Assembly: GCA_020053305.1 (NCBI GenBank)
Contig: JAGVNJ010000030.1
Location: forward strand, 23,940 to 87,939
Reading direction: 5' to 3'
DNA from: Candidatus Edwardsiibacteriota bacterium
Lineage (GTDB): Bacteria; Edwardsbacteria; AC1; EtOH8
DNA length: 64,000 bases
Shown here: piece by piece, positions 45,737-55,069 of the stretch
Layout of the letters: each line of letters starts with the position of its first letter
How positions within the stretch are numbered: position 1 is the stretch's first letter
Position numbers and translations under genes: made by a program
Notes under the pieces: generated by a model
Database searches by the model: none
What the model saw: only the letters and a program-made list of their open reading frames with translations
Told to the model about the DNA's origin: nothing

Positions 45737-46240
45737 ATGATAATATTAGGAATAGATCCCGGAAGCCAGACCACCGGATATGGAGTGTTGGAAAGCGACG
45801 GCCGAAATCGCAAAGTGGTAGCCCTCGGATGCCTCAAGGCACGGCCGGGGGTTTCTCTTTCCGTTCGCTTGGGGGTGATCTACGCCGGGCTTCAGGGGGT
45901 CCTGGAACAGTATCAGCCCGACGAGGTGGCGGTGGAGGCCACCTTTTACGGCAAGAACGTCCACAGTGCCCTGGTGATGGGGCACGCCCGGGGGGTCTGT
46001 CTGCTGGCGGTGCAGCAGGCCGGGTGCAAATTATTTGAATATTCCCCGCTGGAGGTGAAGAAATCCGTGGTGGGCCAGGGCCGGGCCGGCAAGGGCCAGG
46101 TGGGCTTCATGGTCCGGGCCATGCTGGGCCTGCGGGTCAGCCCGCCGGAGGATGCGGCCGACGCTTTGGCGGTGGCGGTATGTCATCTGCAGAGGAGGCA
46201 ATTGGCGCAAATGGTCAAAAAGGCTGACCCCCTTCCTTAG
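45737..46240 (+). CDS. ruvC: Holliday junction resolvase RuvC
   Basis: IILGIDPGSQTTGYGVLE, EVAVEATFYGKNVHSALVMGHARGV, PPEDAADALAVAVCH. Confidence 0.93.
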   Translation: MIILGIDPGSQTTGYGVLESDGRNRKVVALGCLKARPGVSLSVRLGVIYAGLQGVLEQYQPDEVAVEATFYGKNVHSALVMGHARGVCLLAVQQAGCKLFEYSPLEVKKSVVGQGRAGKGQVGFMVRAMLGLRVSPPEDAADALAVAVCHLQRRQLAQMVKKADPLP

Positions 46241-46455
46241 ATCCCTCCCCGAGCATACTTCACCGAAGTATGCAAATATTATTACTGCCGGCTACGTAGG
46301 CTGAATGCGGAGAGGGGAGATTGTCACCCTGAGAAATCAAGCTGCAGGACAAATTGAACGGGTGACGGCGTGATCTCACCCTACCACTTCGAAAGCATGA
46401 CAACTTATCTACCTCAGTGCAGGCTCTCTCCAAAAAGAATTTGGAGAGGGAAAAT
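46225..46455. repeat. Composite stem-loop repeat region between ruvC and ruvA
   Basis: TGACCCCCTTCCTTAGATCCCTCCCC (same edge as the cysS repeat); GCATACTTC-ACC-GAAGTATGC; CTCTCTCCAAAAAGAATTTGGAGAGGG. Confidence 0.6.
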
Positions 46456-46481
46456 GAGAAAAATAATATTTAAATTAAGAT

Positions 46482-47072
46482 ATGTATCATCACATCAAAG
46501 GAACTTTGGTCCATAAATACCCGGCCGAGGCGGTGATAGACACCGGGGGCGTGGGGTATCAGATAAGCATCTCGCTGAACACCTTTGACAAACTGCCGGA
46601 GGCCGGCAACCAGGCCAAGCTGCTGACCTACCTGCACGTCAAGGAAGACATAATGCATTTGTTCGGGTTTGCCTCGGATAAGGAGCGCAAGGTCTTTAAA
46701 ATACTGATCGGCATCTCCGGCATCGGGCCCAAGCTGGCGCTGACGGTGCTGTCTCACATGGCACCGGAGGACCTGGAACAGGCGGTGGCCAACCAGGACA
46801 TGACCATGCTGACGGCAATCTCCGGAGTGGGCAAGAAGACCGCCGAGCGTCTTTTGGTCGAACTGAAGGGCAAAATAGCCGAAGCGGTGGTGGAGGGCTT
46901 GCCGACCATCAAGGGGCAGGGGGCAGGGATCAGCGATCCGGTTATAGAGGCAATGATGTCGCTGGGGCTGAATTACGCCGAGGCCAAAAGCGCGGTGGAG
47001 AAGGCCAAGGCCAAGCTGGGCGAGAAAGCTCCGGTGGAGCAGTTGATAAGGGAAGCACTAAAGGGGAAATGA
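46482..47072 (+). CDS. ruvA: Holliday junction branch migration protein RuvA
   Basis: MYHHIKGTLVHKYPAEAVIDTGGVGYQISISLNTF, HhH GISGIGPKLALTVLS and ISGVGKKTAERLLVELKGK. Confidence 0.95.
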   Translation: MYHHIKGTLVHKYPAEAVIDTGGVGYQISISLNTFDKLPEAGNQAKLLTYLHVKEDIMHLFGFASDKERKVFKILIGISGIGPKLALTVLSHMAPEDLEQAVANQDMTMLTAISGVGKKTAERLLVELKGKIAEAVVEGLPTIKGQGAGISDPVIEAMMSLGLNYAEAKSAVEKAKAKLGEKAPVEQLIREALKGK

Positions 47073-47091
47073 TAAATACTGAGAGGGTAGC

Positions 47092-47799
47092 ATGAGGAAA
47101 GCATTTTTTAATGGGAAAATCACCGATTTAGCTATGGCAGTTATCTTGATCCCAATGTTTATGGTTGGCCATGTATGGGCATCAGAAGCGAATGCACGTA
47201 TAAGCATATCTGTGAAAGATGCCCAAAAAACATCACAGGCACTGCAGAAAATATCAACCGAAAATAAAATTTTCGCTACTAATTTTAACGAATATACCAG
47301 CAGCAAGAAAAAGAAAAAATCAATAAATATCAAATATGAGGTGCCTGAAGCCAGAATATTAGGGTTTATGGCCCAAATTGCGGTATTGGGAGATGTTAAA
47401 TCTCAAAGCTATCAAGCCAAACAAAGCGATTTCGGGAATTTAGAATTAAAAGAGAAAATGCTGGAACAATATAAAAGCCAGCTGGATAAAATAATTGCTT
47501 CAGGGCCCGGCATGCAGGATATGATCACCCAGTTGAACTATAAGATACAAGCCTTGGAAAGAGAAATATCGGAATACGAGAGCCGTAGCGAGGAGGGATA
47601 CGAACCCAAAGTTGTTCTGGATGTTCAAATAAAAGAGCGCGGGTACGACAGCGAGAATGAAGAAAAAAGCGTAACAATAAATCTTATATCATTTATAATT
47701 GTGCTCGTTGCATTGGCAATCATGTCATTATCCCTGGGCATATTAATGGGATGGTTTATATTTAAGAAAAACAAAAATACCGCATCCGGAAACATTTAA
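47092..47799 (+). CDS. DUF4349-like membrane-anchored coiled-coil protein
   Basis: Signal/TM N-terminus, central coiled coil, C-terminal TM; DUF4349-like pattern, tentative. Confidence 0.5.
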   Translation: MRKAFFNGKITDLAMAVILIPMFMVGHVWASEANARISISVKDAQKTSQALQKISTENKIFATNFNEYTSSKKKKKSINIKYEVPEARILGFMAQIAVLGDVKSQSYQAKQSDFGNLELKEKMLEQYKSQLDKIIASGPGMQDMITQLNYKIQALEREISEYESRSEEGYEPKVVLDVQIKERGYDSENEEKSVTINLISFIIVLVALAIMSLSLGILMGWFIFKKNKNTASGNI

Positions 47800-47814
47800 T
47801 ATCCGTAGATTTAC

Positions 47815-48798
47815 ATGGATAAAATAAAATTACAAAAAACGGCAGTATTGCTTATATTGTTGGCAGTACTGGGGGGTGTTTTTACCAAATACACGCTTCC
47901 CCGCAAACACAATATAGTAAGGGGTTTGGTTTACCGGGCCTGGCAGCTTTCGACCGTCGGCATGCATCGCCCGGCGTTGGCATTGTATAATCTGGCTGTT
48001 TCGGTAGAACCAAGCTATTATCAAACATATGTTTTCAGGGGAGACACATATTTAGCCCTGCAAAATGTCCAGAAGGCAGAAGAGGATTACATCCGGACCT
48101 TGGAATTAAAGCCCGGCGACCAGCATGCCATATCATCTCTTAGTATGCTGTATACCATCAATAATGACTTTAAAAGCGCGATTGAGGGATATGAAAAAAT
48201 GTTGAAGGTTGATCTTTCGCAGACCGATTATTATTATTGCCAGATAGGCTTGAATTATCACTTTCTGAAAGATTATGAGAATGCGTTGCTTGCCTTTGAA
48301 AAGGTGCAAAATCCCAAACCAAAATATTCCAACGTTTATAGCTTGAGGGCAACTACTTATTCGGCTTTGCATAGATACGAGTTGGCGGAGGCAGAGTGTG
48401 AAAAAGCATTGGCATTGGATCCATCGCAACAGTATAATTTTACTTCGATGTTGGATATGATTCGGAGAAACAAAGAAAGATATATAAACAATATAATAAA
48501 ATTGGATATCCTGAAAAACTCTTTAGCTGAAAACCCTACCGATGTAAATAAATATTTTGACTTGGCTGGGGTGTATCATGAAATTGGTGAGCCTGAAAAC
48601 GTTATAAAATGTTATACAGCCATAATAGACATAAATAGTAATTCCTGGCAAACGCAAAATGCATATTATAACAGAGGTTGCTTGTATTATGATGACTTGG
48701 GTGATACTCTGGCAGCAATTGAAGACATGAAAACAGCAGCTATGGCGGGGGAAAGGAATGCTAAGAATTGGTTAAAAGAACATAAAATATCTTTTTAA
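47815..48798 (+). CDS. TPR-repeat protein, membrane anchored
   Basis: N-terminal TM, repeated TPR motifs (PSYYQTYVFRGDTYLALQNVQKAEEDYIRTLELKP). Confidence 0.8.
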   Translation: MDKIKLQKTAVLLILLAVLGGVFTKYTLPRKHNIVRGLVYRAWQLSTVGMHRPALALYNLAVSVEPSYYQTYVFRGDTYLALQNVQKAEEDYIRTLELKPGDQHAISSLSMLYTINNDFKSAIEGYEKMLKVDLSQTDYYYCQIGLNYHFLKDYENALLAFEKVQNPKPKYSNVYSLRATTYSALHRYELAEAECEKALALDPSQQYNFTSMLDMIRRNKERYINNIIKLDILKNSLAENPTDVNKYFDLAGVYHEIGEPENVIKCYTAIIDINSNSWQTQNAYYNRGCLYYDDLGDTLAAIEDMKTAAMAGERNAKNWLKEHKISF

Positions 48799-48799
48799 G

Positions 48800-48899
48800 T
48801 GTATAATGAAGCTAAAATGCGGTGGAGAAGGCCAAGGGGAAATTGGGAGATAAGGCTCCGGTGGAGCAGGTGGTAAGGGAAGCATTGAAAGGGAAGTAA
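48800..48899 (+). pseudogene. Diverged duplicate of the ruvA 3' end
   Basis: GAAGCTAAA-ATGCG-GTGGAGAAGGCCAAGGGGAAATTGGGAGATAAGGCTCCGGTGGAGCAGGTGGTAAGGGAAGCATTGAAAGGGAAGTAA aligns to 46980-47072 (EAK..VEKAKGKLGDKAPVEQVVREALKGK*). Confidence 0.9.
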
Positions 48900-48919
48900 T
48901 TTCTTTTAAAGGGGTATCC

Positions 48920-50572
48920 ATGTCTAAGAAAACAAGTCTGGCTTCTCTGTTGCTTGTCATTATGTCTGTTGGGGCATTAGGCCAGGGAGGCCAGTGGCGG
49001 CATTTTTCACAGATAAATCCGGATACTGCTATATCCCTGCAATGCAAATTAGTGAACACGGCAAATAATTTATGGGCAGTTTGGAGTGATCATGTTTATA
49101 GTAGTGATACTGCTTTTATATTTGCGACACGTTTTACGCCCTCTGGGTGGGGTTTAAAACGGAAACTATGTCACACGGTTGGTGAAGAATTTAGCGTGTT
49201 TATGGATATAAATAAGAATGCACACATAACTACAGCGTTTACTGGCGTAATGCCTTCTAAAGACACATTGCTGGGGCCTAACAGAATGGACTGTAGCAGT
49301 TTTGACACTATTTGGAGCCAATTGATATTTGATAATCAGGCAGTTGTCGGTATATCGGCAAATTCACATGATAGCACAGTTTTTGTTTGGCAATTTTATT
49401 TGAATTTCGAGTATTCTATCAATTCAAAGTCTTATTATCAAGGGTGGGGATCCGGGACAACGATTTTTTCTGGGGAGGAATATAAAGGCACCCCTGCAAT
49501 AACATGTGATAAAAATGGCAAATGGTGGACGGGCTGGCAGGAAAATTCACTCTTCGACGGACATTATGACTTGAAGGTGAATTGGCAAATAATTGACACT
49601 TCTGTTGCGAAGCCATTCTGGTCTTTCCATCTAACATCCGATAGCTTGGGTAAAGTATGGGCTTTTTGGTCATCCAATGGAAATATTTTCTACAGGGTAA
49701 ATGAAAGCAATCTTTGGGGTATAGAGGAAACATTGATTGTAGGTTCTAATGTGCAGTCTGTTGCATACAGGGAAGGTATTATCTGCGTGGGAAGACAGCC
49801 CGATAGTTCATTTTATTTCAATTCATTCAATAACTCAGCGTGGAGTGGCTGGCAGTGTATAACAACTGGTGTCAACCGCCAGTTGAAATTGGATCAAATG
49901 GGGAATCCTTGTATTTTGTGGTCAAATGCTAATATATACTATTCTGCCATTTACTGCCGTGATACCATCGCCCCCTGGGTTAAGATAACCGCACCTGTTA
50001 CCGATTCGGTATATTATAAAGGCCAATCGATCCAACTGCAATTCGATCATTCAAGCGATGTGGCTTTTTTAAATGTATATTGCCAGAGGGAAGGGCAGGG
50101 TGATTGGCAGAATATTTTTGACATGATATCAAGGGATTCCCTGGTAAGCTGGACGGTGCCGGATGATTCGGCAAATTATAGATTCAGGGCCGAAGCGATT
50201 GATTCGGGCTGGAACGAAGCCGTTGACAGCACCGGGTGGTTTCTAGTATCACCGCAAGGTATAGCCGGGAAACCGTCTGACTTGCCTGTTAATTTTACTT
50301 TTGGATTAAAAAGCAACGGCCCAAACCCATTTATGCGAAATGCCAAAATCGCATTTGCTGTCGATAAAGCCTGCGATGCAAATATATCGGTATATAACTC
50401 ACTGGGCCAGTTGGTGAAAGTATTATATAATGATAAAACGCTACCCGGGAATTACCAGCTAAACTGGAATGGCTGTGATGTTGCCGGAAAAAAGGCGGCG
50501 GCCGGGGTTTATTTCTGCCGGCTATCTGGCGGCGGCAGAAGTTCCAATATCAAATTAATAAAAGTAAATTGA
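48920..50572 (+). CDS. Secreted protein with FlgD-Ig/T9SS-type C-terminal domain
   Basis: Signal peptide; C-terminal NGPNPFMRNAKIAFAVDKACDANISVYNSLGQLVKVLYNDKTLPGNYQLNWNGCDVAGKKAAAGVYFCRLSGG. Confidence 0.75.
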   Translation: MSKKTSLASLLLVIMSVGALGQGGQWRHFSQINPDTAISLQCKLVNTANNLWAVWSDHVYSSDTAFIFATRFTPSGWGLKRKLCHTVGEEFSVFMDINKNAHITTAFTGVMPSKDTLLGPNRMDCSSFDTIWSQLIFDNQAVVGISANSHDSTVFVWQFYLNFEYSINSKSYYQGWGSGTTIFSGEEYKGTPAITCDKNGKWWTGWQENSLFDGHYDLKVNWQIIDTSVAKPFWSFHLTSDSLGKVWAFWSSNGNIFYRVNESNLWGIEETLIVGSNVQSVAYREGIICVGRQPDSSFYFNSFNNSAWSGWQCITTGVNRQLKLDQMGNPCILWSNANIYYSAIYCRDTIAPWVKITAPVTDSVYYKGQSIQLQFDHSSDVAFLNVYCQREGQGDWQNIFDMISRDSLVSWTVPDDSANYRFRAEAIDSGWNEAVDSTGWFLVSPQGIAGKPSDLPVNFTFGLKSNGPNPFMRNAKIAFAVDKACDANISVYNSLGQLVKVLYNDKTLPGNYQLNWNGCDVAGKKAAAGVYFCRLSGGGRSSNIKLIKVN

Positions 50573-50579
50573 CCCTCAA

Positions 50580-51746
50580 ATGAAATTCAAAATAATATTC
50601 CTGATAATTGTCCTGTTTACCAACCTCTGTCAGGCTGGAAAGAAGACCTTCATCCGCGAATACACCTACCAGGCCAGCGACTACGACAGCCGGCTGACCT
50701 GCCAGGCCATCGCCCTGAGCGAGGTCAAGCGTCTTTTGCTGGAGGAGATCGGCACCTACTTAGTCAGCGGGACCACGGTCCAGAACGGCATGGTGGTGTC
50801 GGACGACATTTCGGTCTATACCGCCGGGGCGGTGCAGACCAAGGTGATCGACCAGAGATGGGACGGCAAGACCTACTGGCTAAAAGCCCGGATCGAGGCC
50901 GATCCCGACAGCGTATCGGCCGCAGTGTCCCGGCTGCGGGAGGATAAAGGCAGGATGAAGGAACTGGAGGACCTCAAGAGGTCGTCCGACCAGGCCTTGG
51001 CAGAGATATCTAAACTGAACCAGGCCTTAAGCCAGGCCCATACCCAGAACGCCGGGTTCGCCGACCAGATAAAATACCTGCAGAACGCCCAAAAATTGTC
51101 GGCCGCCCAGTCGGCCCAGCAGGGATATGCGGCCCTGTCATCCGGCGATGCCACAGCCGCCCTGCTGGCCTTCACCAGAGCATTGGAAACAGATCCCAAC
51201 GACGCGATAGCGCTGATTAACCGCGGCATCGCCTATGCCCAGCTCAAGGATCATAAGAAAGCCCTGGCCGATTACAACCTGGCCCTGAAAGCATCGGCCA
51301 GCGATCCCCGGATATACTATAACCGCGGCATCGCCTATTATCATTTAAAGGAATATACCAAGGCGCTGAATGATTTCAATCATTCGCTGCTGCTGAAACC
51401 GGACAACAGCAAGGCCCATTTCAACCGGGCGCTGACTTATGAAAAATTGGAAAATTGGAAATTGGCCCTGACAGACTACACTAAGGCAATCAAACTGGAC
51501 CCGGCCGATGTTCAGGCGTATGATAACCGTGGGACGATATATCTCCAGCAAAAGTTATATGCCAAGGCTTTGGCTGATTTCGATCAGTCTATTGAGGTGG
51601 ACAATAGATCCGGCGATGCTTACTTGAACCGGGCGGGATTGTACGCCGTCAAAGGGGATATGGAATCCGCCCTGGCCGATGCCCAAAAGGCGGCCCAGCT
51701 GGGAAGCGATGAGGCCAAACTTCTGTTGGAAAGATTGGGACAGTAG
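50580..51746 (+). CDS. Secreted TPR-repeat protein
   Basis: Signal peptide; C-terminal tandem TPRs (INRGIAYAQLKDHKKALADYNLAL and similar). Confidence 0.85.
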   Translation: MKFKIIFLIIVLFTNLCQAGKKTFIREYTYQASDYDSRLTCQAIALSEVKRLLLEEIGTYLVSGTTVQNGMVVSDDISVYTAGAVQTKVIDQRWDGKTYWLKARIEADPDSVSAAVSRLREDKGRMKELEDLKRSSDQALAEISKLNQALSQAHTQNAGFADQIKYLQNAQKLSAAQSAQQGYAALSSGDATAALLAFTRALETDPNDAIALINRGIAYAQLKDHKKALADYNLALKASASDPRIYYNRGIAYYHLKEYTKALNDFNHSLLLKPDNSKAHFNRALTYEKLENWKLALTDYTKAIKLDPADVQAYDNRGTIYLQQKLYAKALADFDQSIEVDNRSGDAYLNRAGLYAVKGDMESALADAQKAAQLGSDEAKLLLERLGQ

Positions 51747-51775
51747 GATAAGAGCCAAATCTCCTAGGTGTCTTC

Positions 51776-51890
51776 GTCATTCCTGCACTTCATTGCATTC
51801 AGCATAAACTCCGGCAGGAATCCAGTTCTTTGTGGATTCCCGTTCCCCGCCTTCGCGAGGACAAGTTTCACGGGAATGACAGATTACAAA
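51776..51890. repeat. REP-like repeat (GTCATTCC...GGAATGAC)
   Basis: CGTCATTCCTGCACTTC...GGCAGGAATCCAG...ACGGGAATGACAG. Confidence 0.6.
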
Positions 51891-51909
51891 AAGTTTAAAT
51901 TTATAAAAT

Positions 51910-52932
<1,023 letters not shown>

Positions 52933-53466: not shown

Positions 53467-54258
53467 ATGAACAACAAACCAAAGATCGGCCTGGCCCTCT
53501 CCGGCGGCGTAGGCTACTGCATGACCCACATAGGTGTATTGCAGGCTCTGGAAAACGCCGGCATCAGGCCGGACATCATCGCCGGGACCTCGGGCGGGGC
53601 CCTGATCGGCGCCCTGTATGCCTCGGGCATCCGGCTGGACCGGATAGAGGAGATCGCCAAATCCGTCAAGTGGAACAAGCTGATGGGCCCCCATTTTCTT
53701 TTCAAGGGCCTGGGCTCCTCCAAGCCCATCGAGGACCTGATGGATGACCTGCTGGGGAGGGGCCGCCGCTTCGCCGACCTCAGCACCAGGCTGCTGGTCT
53801 CGGCGGTGGACCTGGTCAGCGAGCAGAAGATCATGTTCCCCGAGGATGAATCCCAGGCCATCTCTCTGCCGGTCCGGGCCTCCTGCAGCCTTCCGCTGGT
53901 CTTTTCCCCGGTGCGCTACAAGGACCGACTGTTGGTGGATGGAGGAATGCTGGTGCCGCTTCCGGTGCGCGAACTCAAGGCGGCCGGGGCGGGTTTCGTG
54001 ATTGCCGCCGATTTCAAGGTAGCCCGGGACGAGCCCAAAAACATGTTCGACGTGGCCCTGCGCACCCTGCGGATCGCCAACCAGGAAAGAGTGGACGACG
54101 CCATGAAGGCGGCTGACATTGTGATCGAAAGCCATATCGGCGGAGGCAGCCGCTGGGACCTGGCGGCCGCATCGGACCTGATAAAGGTCGGCCGGATGGC
54201 GGCCGAGGATATCCTGGCCAGGAACGGCGAAAAGATCAAAATCATCAAGGATGTCTGA
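53467..54258 (+). CDS. Patatin-like phospholipase (paralog 1)
   Basis: LALSGGVGYCMTHIGVLQALE, GTSGGALIGALYASG, LLVDGGMLVPLPV. Confidence 0.88.
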   Translation: MNNKPKIGLALSGGVGYCMTHIGVLQALENAGIRPDIIAGTSGGALIGALYASGIRLDRIEEIAKSVKWNKLMGPHFLFKGLGSSKPIEDLMDDLLGRGRRFADLSTRLLVSAVDLVSEQKIMFPEDESQAISLPVRASCSLPLVFSPVRYKDRLLVDGGMLVPLPVRELKAAGAGFVIAADFKVARDEPKNMFDVALRTLRIANQERVDDAMKAADIVIESHIGGGSRWDLAAASDLIKVGRMAAEDILARNGEKIKIIKDV

Positions 54259-55069
54259 TAATTATATGTATGACAAACCGAAGATCGGACTGGCTTTGGC
54301 CGGAGGGGTGGGATACTGCCTGGCTCACATCGGAGTGCTGAAGGCTCTGGAGGAGGAAAAGGTAAAGGTCGACGTGCTGGCCGGGACCTCGGGCGGAGCC
54401 CTGATCGGCGCCCTGTATGCCTCGGGCATAGGCGCCGGCCGGCTGGAGGAGATCGCCAAGAACATCTCCTGGAGCCAGCTGATGAGCCCCACCATGATCT
54501 TCCGCAACAAGGGGCTGGTGTCGTCGGAGCCGATCGAGAAACTGGTGGAGGAGCTGATCGGCAAGGACCGCCGCTTCAGCGAGCTGAAGCTTCCCCTCTC
54601 GGTGGCCACCGTGGACCTGATCTCGGGGGACGAGGTGATGTTCCCCCACAGCCCCGACGACCTGATCGCCCCGGCGGTGCGGGCCTCCTGTTCGGTGCCG
54701 GTGGTGTTCGCCCCGGTGAAGATAGGCCAGTGGCTGCTGTCGGACGGCGGCATCAAGGACCCCCTGCCCATCAAGCCCCTGAAAAAATATAATCCCGAAT
54801 TGATGATCGGGGTGGCCTTCGCCACCGGAAAGTACGAGCCCACCAATCTTTTCGAGATCGGGGTCCGCTCTATGATGCTGGCCAACGACAAGATCCTGGA
54901 GGCCTACGAGCAGGAGCTGGATGTGCTGATAAAATGCCAGACCGGCGAGATATCCAGCTGGGACCTTAAAACCGCGGTCCAGCTGATCGATGTGGGCTAC
55001 GAAGCCGCCCGGCAGAACATCGCCAAGCTTAAAGGGTGCTGCGATAACAAAAAAATCAATTTGGGGTAG
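54251..55069 (+). CDS. Patatin-like phospholipase (paralog 2)
   Basis: LALAGGVGYCLAHIGVLKALE, GTSGGALIGALYASG, LLSDGGIKDPLPI; overlaps paralog 1 by 8 nt. Confidence 0.88.
   Translation: MSDNYMYDKPKIGLALAGGVGYCLAHIGVLKALEEEKVKVDVLAGTSGGALIGALYASGIGAGRLEEIAKNISWSQLMSPTMIFRNKGLVSSEPIEKLVEELIGKDRRFSELKLPLSVATVDLISGDEVMFPHSPDDLIAPAVRASCSVPVVFAPVKIGQWLLSDGGIKDPLPIKPLKKYNPELMIGVAFATGKYEPTNLFEIGVRSMMLANDKILEAYEQELDVLIKCQTGEISSWDLKTAVQLIDVGYEAARQNIAKLKGCCDNKKINLG

Follow-up and report, generated by a model that had tools for sequence, protein, structure and literature searches.

A second, diverged ruvA 3' end marks a two-gene insert between ruvA and ruvB in a Candidatus Edwardsiibacteriota genome

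Introduction

How did two genes come to lie behind ruvA in this bacterium, with a copy of the ruvA 3' end on either side of them? We asked this of a 64,000-nucleotide stretch of a Candidatus Edwardsiibacteriota genome (the window). A preliminary description of the window had read the arrangement as an insertion that brought a donor ruvA tail, as in elements that insert at gene 3' ends and restore them. We compared the locus with its counterparts in a set of ten genomes of the phylum, all from one family and including the window's own (G000). The features of the locus are as follows.

46482..47072, + strand: live ruvA, complete, 196 aa (RuvA_N, HHH_5 and RuvA_C above the Pfam cut-offs)
46980..47072, + strand: 3' end of live ruvA, counterpart of the relic (local alignment)
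47092..47799, + strand: DUF4349-like gene, insert gene 1, 235 aa (DUF4349 match below the cut-off)
47815..48798, + strand: TPR327, insert gene 2, 327 aa, hydrophobic N-terminus (TPR families)
48808..48899, + strand: ruvA 3'-end relic (alignment, tree and substitution pattern)
48900..48919, + strand: spacer TTTCTTTTAAA-GGGG..., common with the spacer of G002 from ruvA to the next gene
48920..50572, + strand: gene 48920, putative resident, for a secreted protein of 550 aa with a FlgD_ig / Por_Secre_tail C-terminus
50580..51746, + strand: TPR388, putative resident, 388 aa (orthologues in G002, G003, G006 and G008; 3'-end remnant in G001)
51910..52932, + strand: ruvB (RuvB_N, AAA_lid_4 and RuvB_C)

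The two ruvA 3' ends

Live ruvA encodes a protein with 92 to 94% amino acid identity to those of three congeners. We found that its 3' end (46980-47072) recurs at 48808-48899 with 82 to 84% identity and the loss of one base. The best local alignment, of 46980-47069 with 48808-48896, has a single 1-base gap and a score of 96, compared with 28 or less when the rest of the window was taken in 300-base pieces, on both strands. In a BLAST search of the window against itself, the E value of the pair was 5e-17. Over the 87 nt that are in register, the two are 82% identical, and the tail contains stretches of 19 and 15 bp without any difference. Protein and DNA searches of the genome found no third copy of the ruvA tail, and the next DNA match had an E value of 0.007. 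The duplicate first described as bracketing two genes is thus real. Two details given of it also stood: one base is lost near the start of the second copy, and this copy, which we call the relic, ends in its own stop. Read in frame, the relic is AVEKAKGKLGDKAPVEQVVREALKGK*, and it lacks a proper start codon and the 5' part of the gene. It does not begin right after the TPR327 stop (48798), as had been written, but 9 bases 3' of it.

The relic and the live tail are separated by nine silent and four replacement differences (P = 0.0005 under neutral change), and the relic and the tail of the congener G002 by seven silent and two replacement differences (P < 0.001). Because the differences are mostly silent and far from neutral, the relic was a working ruvA end for most of its separate history, as the earlier proposal of a second, once-functional allele held. 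Of 78 sites compared, the relic differed from the live tail at 13 and from G002 and G003 at 9 each. The live tail itself was at a normal species distance from its congeners (8 to 10 of 78). We also found derived sites that are common to the relic and G002/G003 and absent from live ruvA. Trees favored placing the relic with G002/G003, with a log-likelihood difference of 8 to 9. The approximately unbiased (AU) test rejected the grouping of relic and live tail with the full gene alignment (p = 0.019) but not with the tail alone (about 90 bp; p = 0.19). The two tails do not behave as recent tandem copies, and a recent tandem duplication followed by decay of the relic is disfavored.

Instead, ruvA or its end could have been duplicated in place long ago, with the two genes landing in between and the second copy then decaying. 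No foreign ruvA has to be invoked for this, the sample of 90 bp is small, and the AU test on the tail alone (p = 0.19) does not reject the grouping of relic and live tail. However, a redundant copy should not change chiefly at silent sites, as the relic has against both live ruvA (9:4) and G002 (7:2; P < 0.001). The full-alignment AU test (p = 0.019) argues against it as well, and the derived sites of the relic match G002/G003 and not live ruvA. We consider such a duplication very unlikely.

The substitutions between the relic and G002 are uneven, with two in the first 51 sites and seven in the last 27 (permutation p = 0.042), in a test that is borderline, was made post hoc, and is weaker with other references. 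With a p value this close to the border, we did not rely on a mosaic in the 78-nt tail, in which the relic would resemble G002 in its 5' part and no congener in its 3' part. Along its length, ruvA has mixed phylogenetic affinities and no clean breakpoint. For the live tail, as for yebC, ruvC, and ruvB, the affinities are those of the species, with G001 the closest.

The site without the insert

In G002, we found ruvA, then the orthologue of gene 48920 starting 24 bases past the ruvA stop, then TPR388 and ruvB, with no insert. From the relic through the spacer into gene 48920, the sequence matches the corresponding stretch of G002 (ruvA end, spacer, and gene start) at about 87% over 224 bp (86.6% by BLASTN for 48808-49026). 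Because this homology runs uninterrupted in G002, G002 represents the empty site, and the relic stands where the ruvA end originally was. By the same alignment, the relic belongs to its right-hand neighbor, gene 48920. A duplicate limited to about 92 bp, as originally described, is correct with respect to the live tail; against G002, the homology extends through the spacer into gene 48920. An orthologue of gene 48920 also lies directly 3' of ruvA in G008, which is from another genus.

In G001, the nearest congener, a 197-bp spacer between ruvA and ruvB begins with the last 25 or so nt of TPR388 (score of 37, compared with 27 for the best of 2,000 shuffles). This remnant (in locus L032), a few bases past the ruvA stop, is the scar of a deletion of the FlgD_ig-TPR388 block that left ruvA intact. 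Because of this remnant and the orthologues in G002 and G008 (for TPR388, also in G003 and G006), we take the FlgD_ig-TPR388 block to the right of the relic to be ancestral and the DUF4349-TPR327 pair to be a derived newcomer.

Sequence distances by themselves would also allow the reverse polarity, in which ruvA, the DUF4349-like gene, and TPR327 are resident and the stretch from the ruvA tail through FlgD_ig to TPR388 is foreign, coming from a relative like G002/G003. The relic does group with G002/G003, G001 is nearest for the live tail and for yebC, ruvC, and ruvB, and the FlgD_ig-TPR388 block is absent from that genome. We nevertheless hold this to be rather improbable. The TPR388 3' end after ruvA in G001 argues that the common ancestor already had the block. 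The TPR388 of G000 falls outside the G002/G003 pair (distances of 0.19 to 0.21 to its members, compared with 0.16 between them), as vertical descent predicts. In addition, the reverse polarity requires loss and regain of the block and an otherwise unseen ruvA-DUF4349-TPR state.

Across the family, the ruvA-ruvB interval holds from 0 to 4 genes. Its content differs among all readable genomes save the two without genes. The SulP-like genes were named by eye, and the G009 contig did not show ruvB:

G001 and G004: no genes
G003: TPR388
G002: FlgD_ig and TPR388
G006: SulP-like transporter gene and TPR388
G008: FlgD_ig, SulP-like gene, and TPR388
G005: distant DUF4349 gene and SulP-like gene
G000 (window): four genes and the relic

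The region between ruvA and ruvB is thus a spot of gene turnover in this uncultured phylum. The comparison of ruvA-ruvB spacing that had been proposed was informative: congeners differ in content, and G002 has the empty site. We found the DUF4349-TPR327 insert in this species alone among the ten genomes, and not with the same cargo and duplicate at all phylogenetic depths. Different cargo at the ruvA 3' end elsewhere, for which a search had been suggested, was found in the content of the interval; the tail relic is in the window alone and in none of the loci examined in eight relatives. It is highly doubtful that small integrase-free cassettes, each bringing its own ruvA ending, dock repeatedly at the ruvA 3' end in this phylum; if true, cargo would be gained in step with the C-terminal domain of a Holliday-junction protein.

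The genes of the insert

The DUF4349-like gene starts 19 bases 3' of the ruvA stop, and because the insert genes run in the same direction as ruvA at this short distance, they are probably cotranscribed with it. The DUF4349 label given to the first gene has a match behind it, but a weak one that falls below the gathering score (22.1 bits versus 27.7 bits). Homologues with 25 to 32% identity are present in seven other genomes of the phylum, and this genome has a second such homologue. The best matches of TPR327 elsewhere in the family are TPR-only and at most 33% identical. Neither insert gene has a close relative among the remaining nine genomes of the set. A wider search with the DUF4349-like gene (386 genomes) returned only the distant homologues of the phylum and one marginal match with stops. 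Among plasmids, phages, and viral contigs, we found no homologue of the DUF4349-like protein, and the PHROGs gave just a TPR-type match, for TPR327. In the gene tree, where long branches meet, the DUF4349-like gene was placed near no other member.

The description of the insert as AT-rich is accurate for its two genes (GC3 of 0.40 to 0.41), but their low GC is nothing particular to the insert, as resident gene 48920 has a GC3 of 0.42. The GC3 values of tpr388, yebC, ruvC, ruvA, and ruvB are 0.71 to 0.82.

In G005, from another genus, a distant DUF4349-like gene adjoins ruvA (L039, 3415-4101), by independent arrival or old adjacency. We rejected it as the source of the insert gene at 25% identity, though it lies directly 3' of the G005 ruvA. 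The second DUF4349-like gene of the window's genome (L048, G000:C59:40625-41188) is beside a gene for a multi-pass membrane protein. This neighbor is kept in congeners, and the second gene was apparently inherited vertically.

How the insert may have arrived

The left joint of the insert is inside an intact ruvA, and at the right joint, at about 48808, unrelated sequence meets a ruvA tail. The reading that we favor, and hold to be probable, is that donor DNA with cargo and a ruvA 3' end integrated in the past, assisted by homology and without an integrase. The genus ancestor would have had the order ruvA, secreted FlgD_ig protein, TPR388, ruvB. The donor would have been a related bacterium in whose DNA the DUF4349-like gene and TPR327 came after a ruvA 3' end. 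Homologous recombination within ruvA would have formed the left joint, giving a whole, in-frame ruvA that ends in the donor allele. The right joint would be nonhomologous or come from a trimmed circle, about 92 bp ahead of the old ruvA stop, and the old ruvA end would thereby have been severed and left as the relic before its original neighbor, gene 48920. The likely routes are homology-facilitated illegitimate recombination (HFIR) of linear DNA and single crossover of a circle with a short ruvA end. Insertion with a donor ruvA tail, as first suggested, therefore keeps its second 3' end, but the parts are exchanged: judging from gene order, the live ruvA 3' end is the probable newcomer and the relic the displaced resident end.

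Counted against this integration is that nothing visibly marks the live end as foreign: its distance to congeners is normal, and ruvA has no clear step to a donor allele. A scan of genome contigs for RuvA gave three loci and no donor, and we found no donor with ruvA-DUF4349-TPR. ComEC is a DNA-uptake channel and is required for uptake in competent bacteria. We found it in this genome and in all six other family members searched, which permits transformation but does not show it.

The preliminary description had instead likened the insert to elements that insert at gene 3' ends and restore them. The insert could be what is left of such a site-specific integrative element, with the ruvA 3' end as its attachment site and the integrase lost or acting in trans. 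Its anatomy equals that of icd/e14/icdC, in which the whole gene and the insert are followed by a displaced 3' piece with mostly silent differences, the 19- and 15-bp identical runs could be a core, and the uneven substitutions in the relic (p = 0.042) are as expected of a crossover inside the tail. That unevenness, however, carries the limits given above. The cargo is just two genes, neither a recombinase and none typical of mobile elements. We found no tyrosine recombinase (PF00589) in the insert or elsewhere on the 88-kb contig (C14); the four in the genome are all on other contigs. The other genomes examined have no ruvA-tail relic, and the DUF4349-like gene has no homologue in plasmids, phages, or viral contigs. 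With no sign of self-mobility, we regard a site-specific element as unlikely.

The genome, probably metagenome assembled, is in 77 contigs, and the two tails resemble alleles of different lineages. Such a pattern might arise from an assembly chimera of two strains, one ending in TPR327 and the other running from the ruvA tail into FlgD_ig. However, the junction lies in a ruvA end severed 92 bp short of its stop, beside unrelated DNA, with no common sequence on which an assembler could overlap, and completeness is 99% with 0.2% contamination. A chimera is scarcely credible.

Comparison with known systems

The closest known look-alike is the scar of e14 in icd (PMC6379469, PMC11148124). There too, the core gene is whole by virtue of an incoming 3' end, the old end is stranded past the insert, and the tail differences are mostly silent with conservative replacements. 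In Escherichia coli icd, the displaced piece is 165 bp with 12 changes, two of them conservative replacements (PMC11148124). Repetition of the host 3' end at the far end of the insert, a trait of elements at gene 3' ends, is present here. In contrast, e14 is a 15-kb prophage with its own integrase, and our insert is 1.7 kb with two genes and no integrase. The 5' part of the ruvA relic, unlike that of the e14/icd scar, is degraded by one lost base.

Like the products of HFIR and single crossover (PMC3240628), the insert would have one homologous and one nonhomologous end under the integration that we propose. Laboratory single-crossover integrations left part-gene duplications of 109 to 950 bp (PMC3240628), and a part-gene duplication likewise adjoins the insert here. 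In classical HFIR, the deletion is usually about equal to the insertion, and 3 to 10 bp of microhomology are used (PMC3240628); here nothing is missing but the connection between the old tail and the 5' part of ruvA.

As far as the definition in PMC3082526 goes, the locus resembles the minimal mobile elements of Neisseria (Saunders and Snyder 2002) in having a conserved pair (ruvA, ruvB) with whole-gene content that differs among relatives and no mobility genes. As to homologous exchange in the flanking genes, the signal along ruvA is mixed, with no clear breakpoint. The locus differs from that definition in that we compared species and genera rather than strains and that the variation is partly loss of an ancestral block.

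The insertion behind ruvA is a clear and fairly ordinary gene-acquisition scar of a known kind. It is well preserved, with an empty site in a congener, and records the entry of genes into a core repair operon without mobile-element machinery. The general picture is not altered: both displaced gene ends and core-gene intervals of variable content were known before.

Other features of the region

A 17-nt inverted repeat (47207-47223 and 48999-49015, 94% complementary) has one arm in the DUF4349-like gene and the other, about 1.8 kb away, within gene 48920; this may be chance. Compared with its G002 orthologue (L034/L036), gene 48920 is just 20 to 27% identical in alignment columns 51-200, with its N-terminus and C-terminal half conserved, suggesting a hypervariable part within an otherwise conserved gene. 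A tRNA search of the window was negative, and 46200-52000 matched no Rfam family. The noncoding ruvC-ruvA spacer (46240-46480) holds a CTCTCCAAA/TTTGGAGAG hairpin, and the same motif, possibly a dispersed repeat, precedes ruvA in congeners. Two patatin-like genes lie in tandem at 53467-54258 and about 54265-54970, with 74% DNA identity over 320 bp, and the pair is present in G002 and G005 too.
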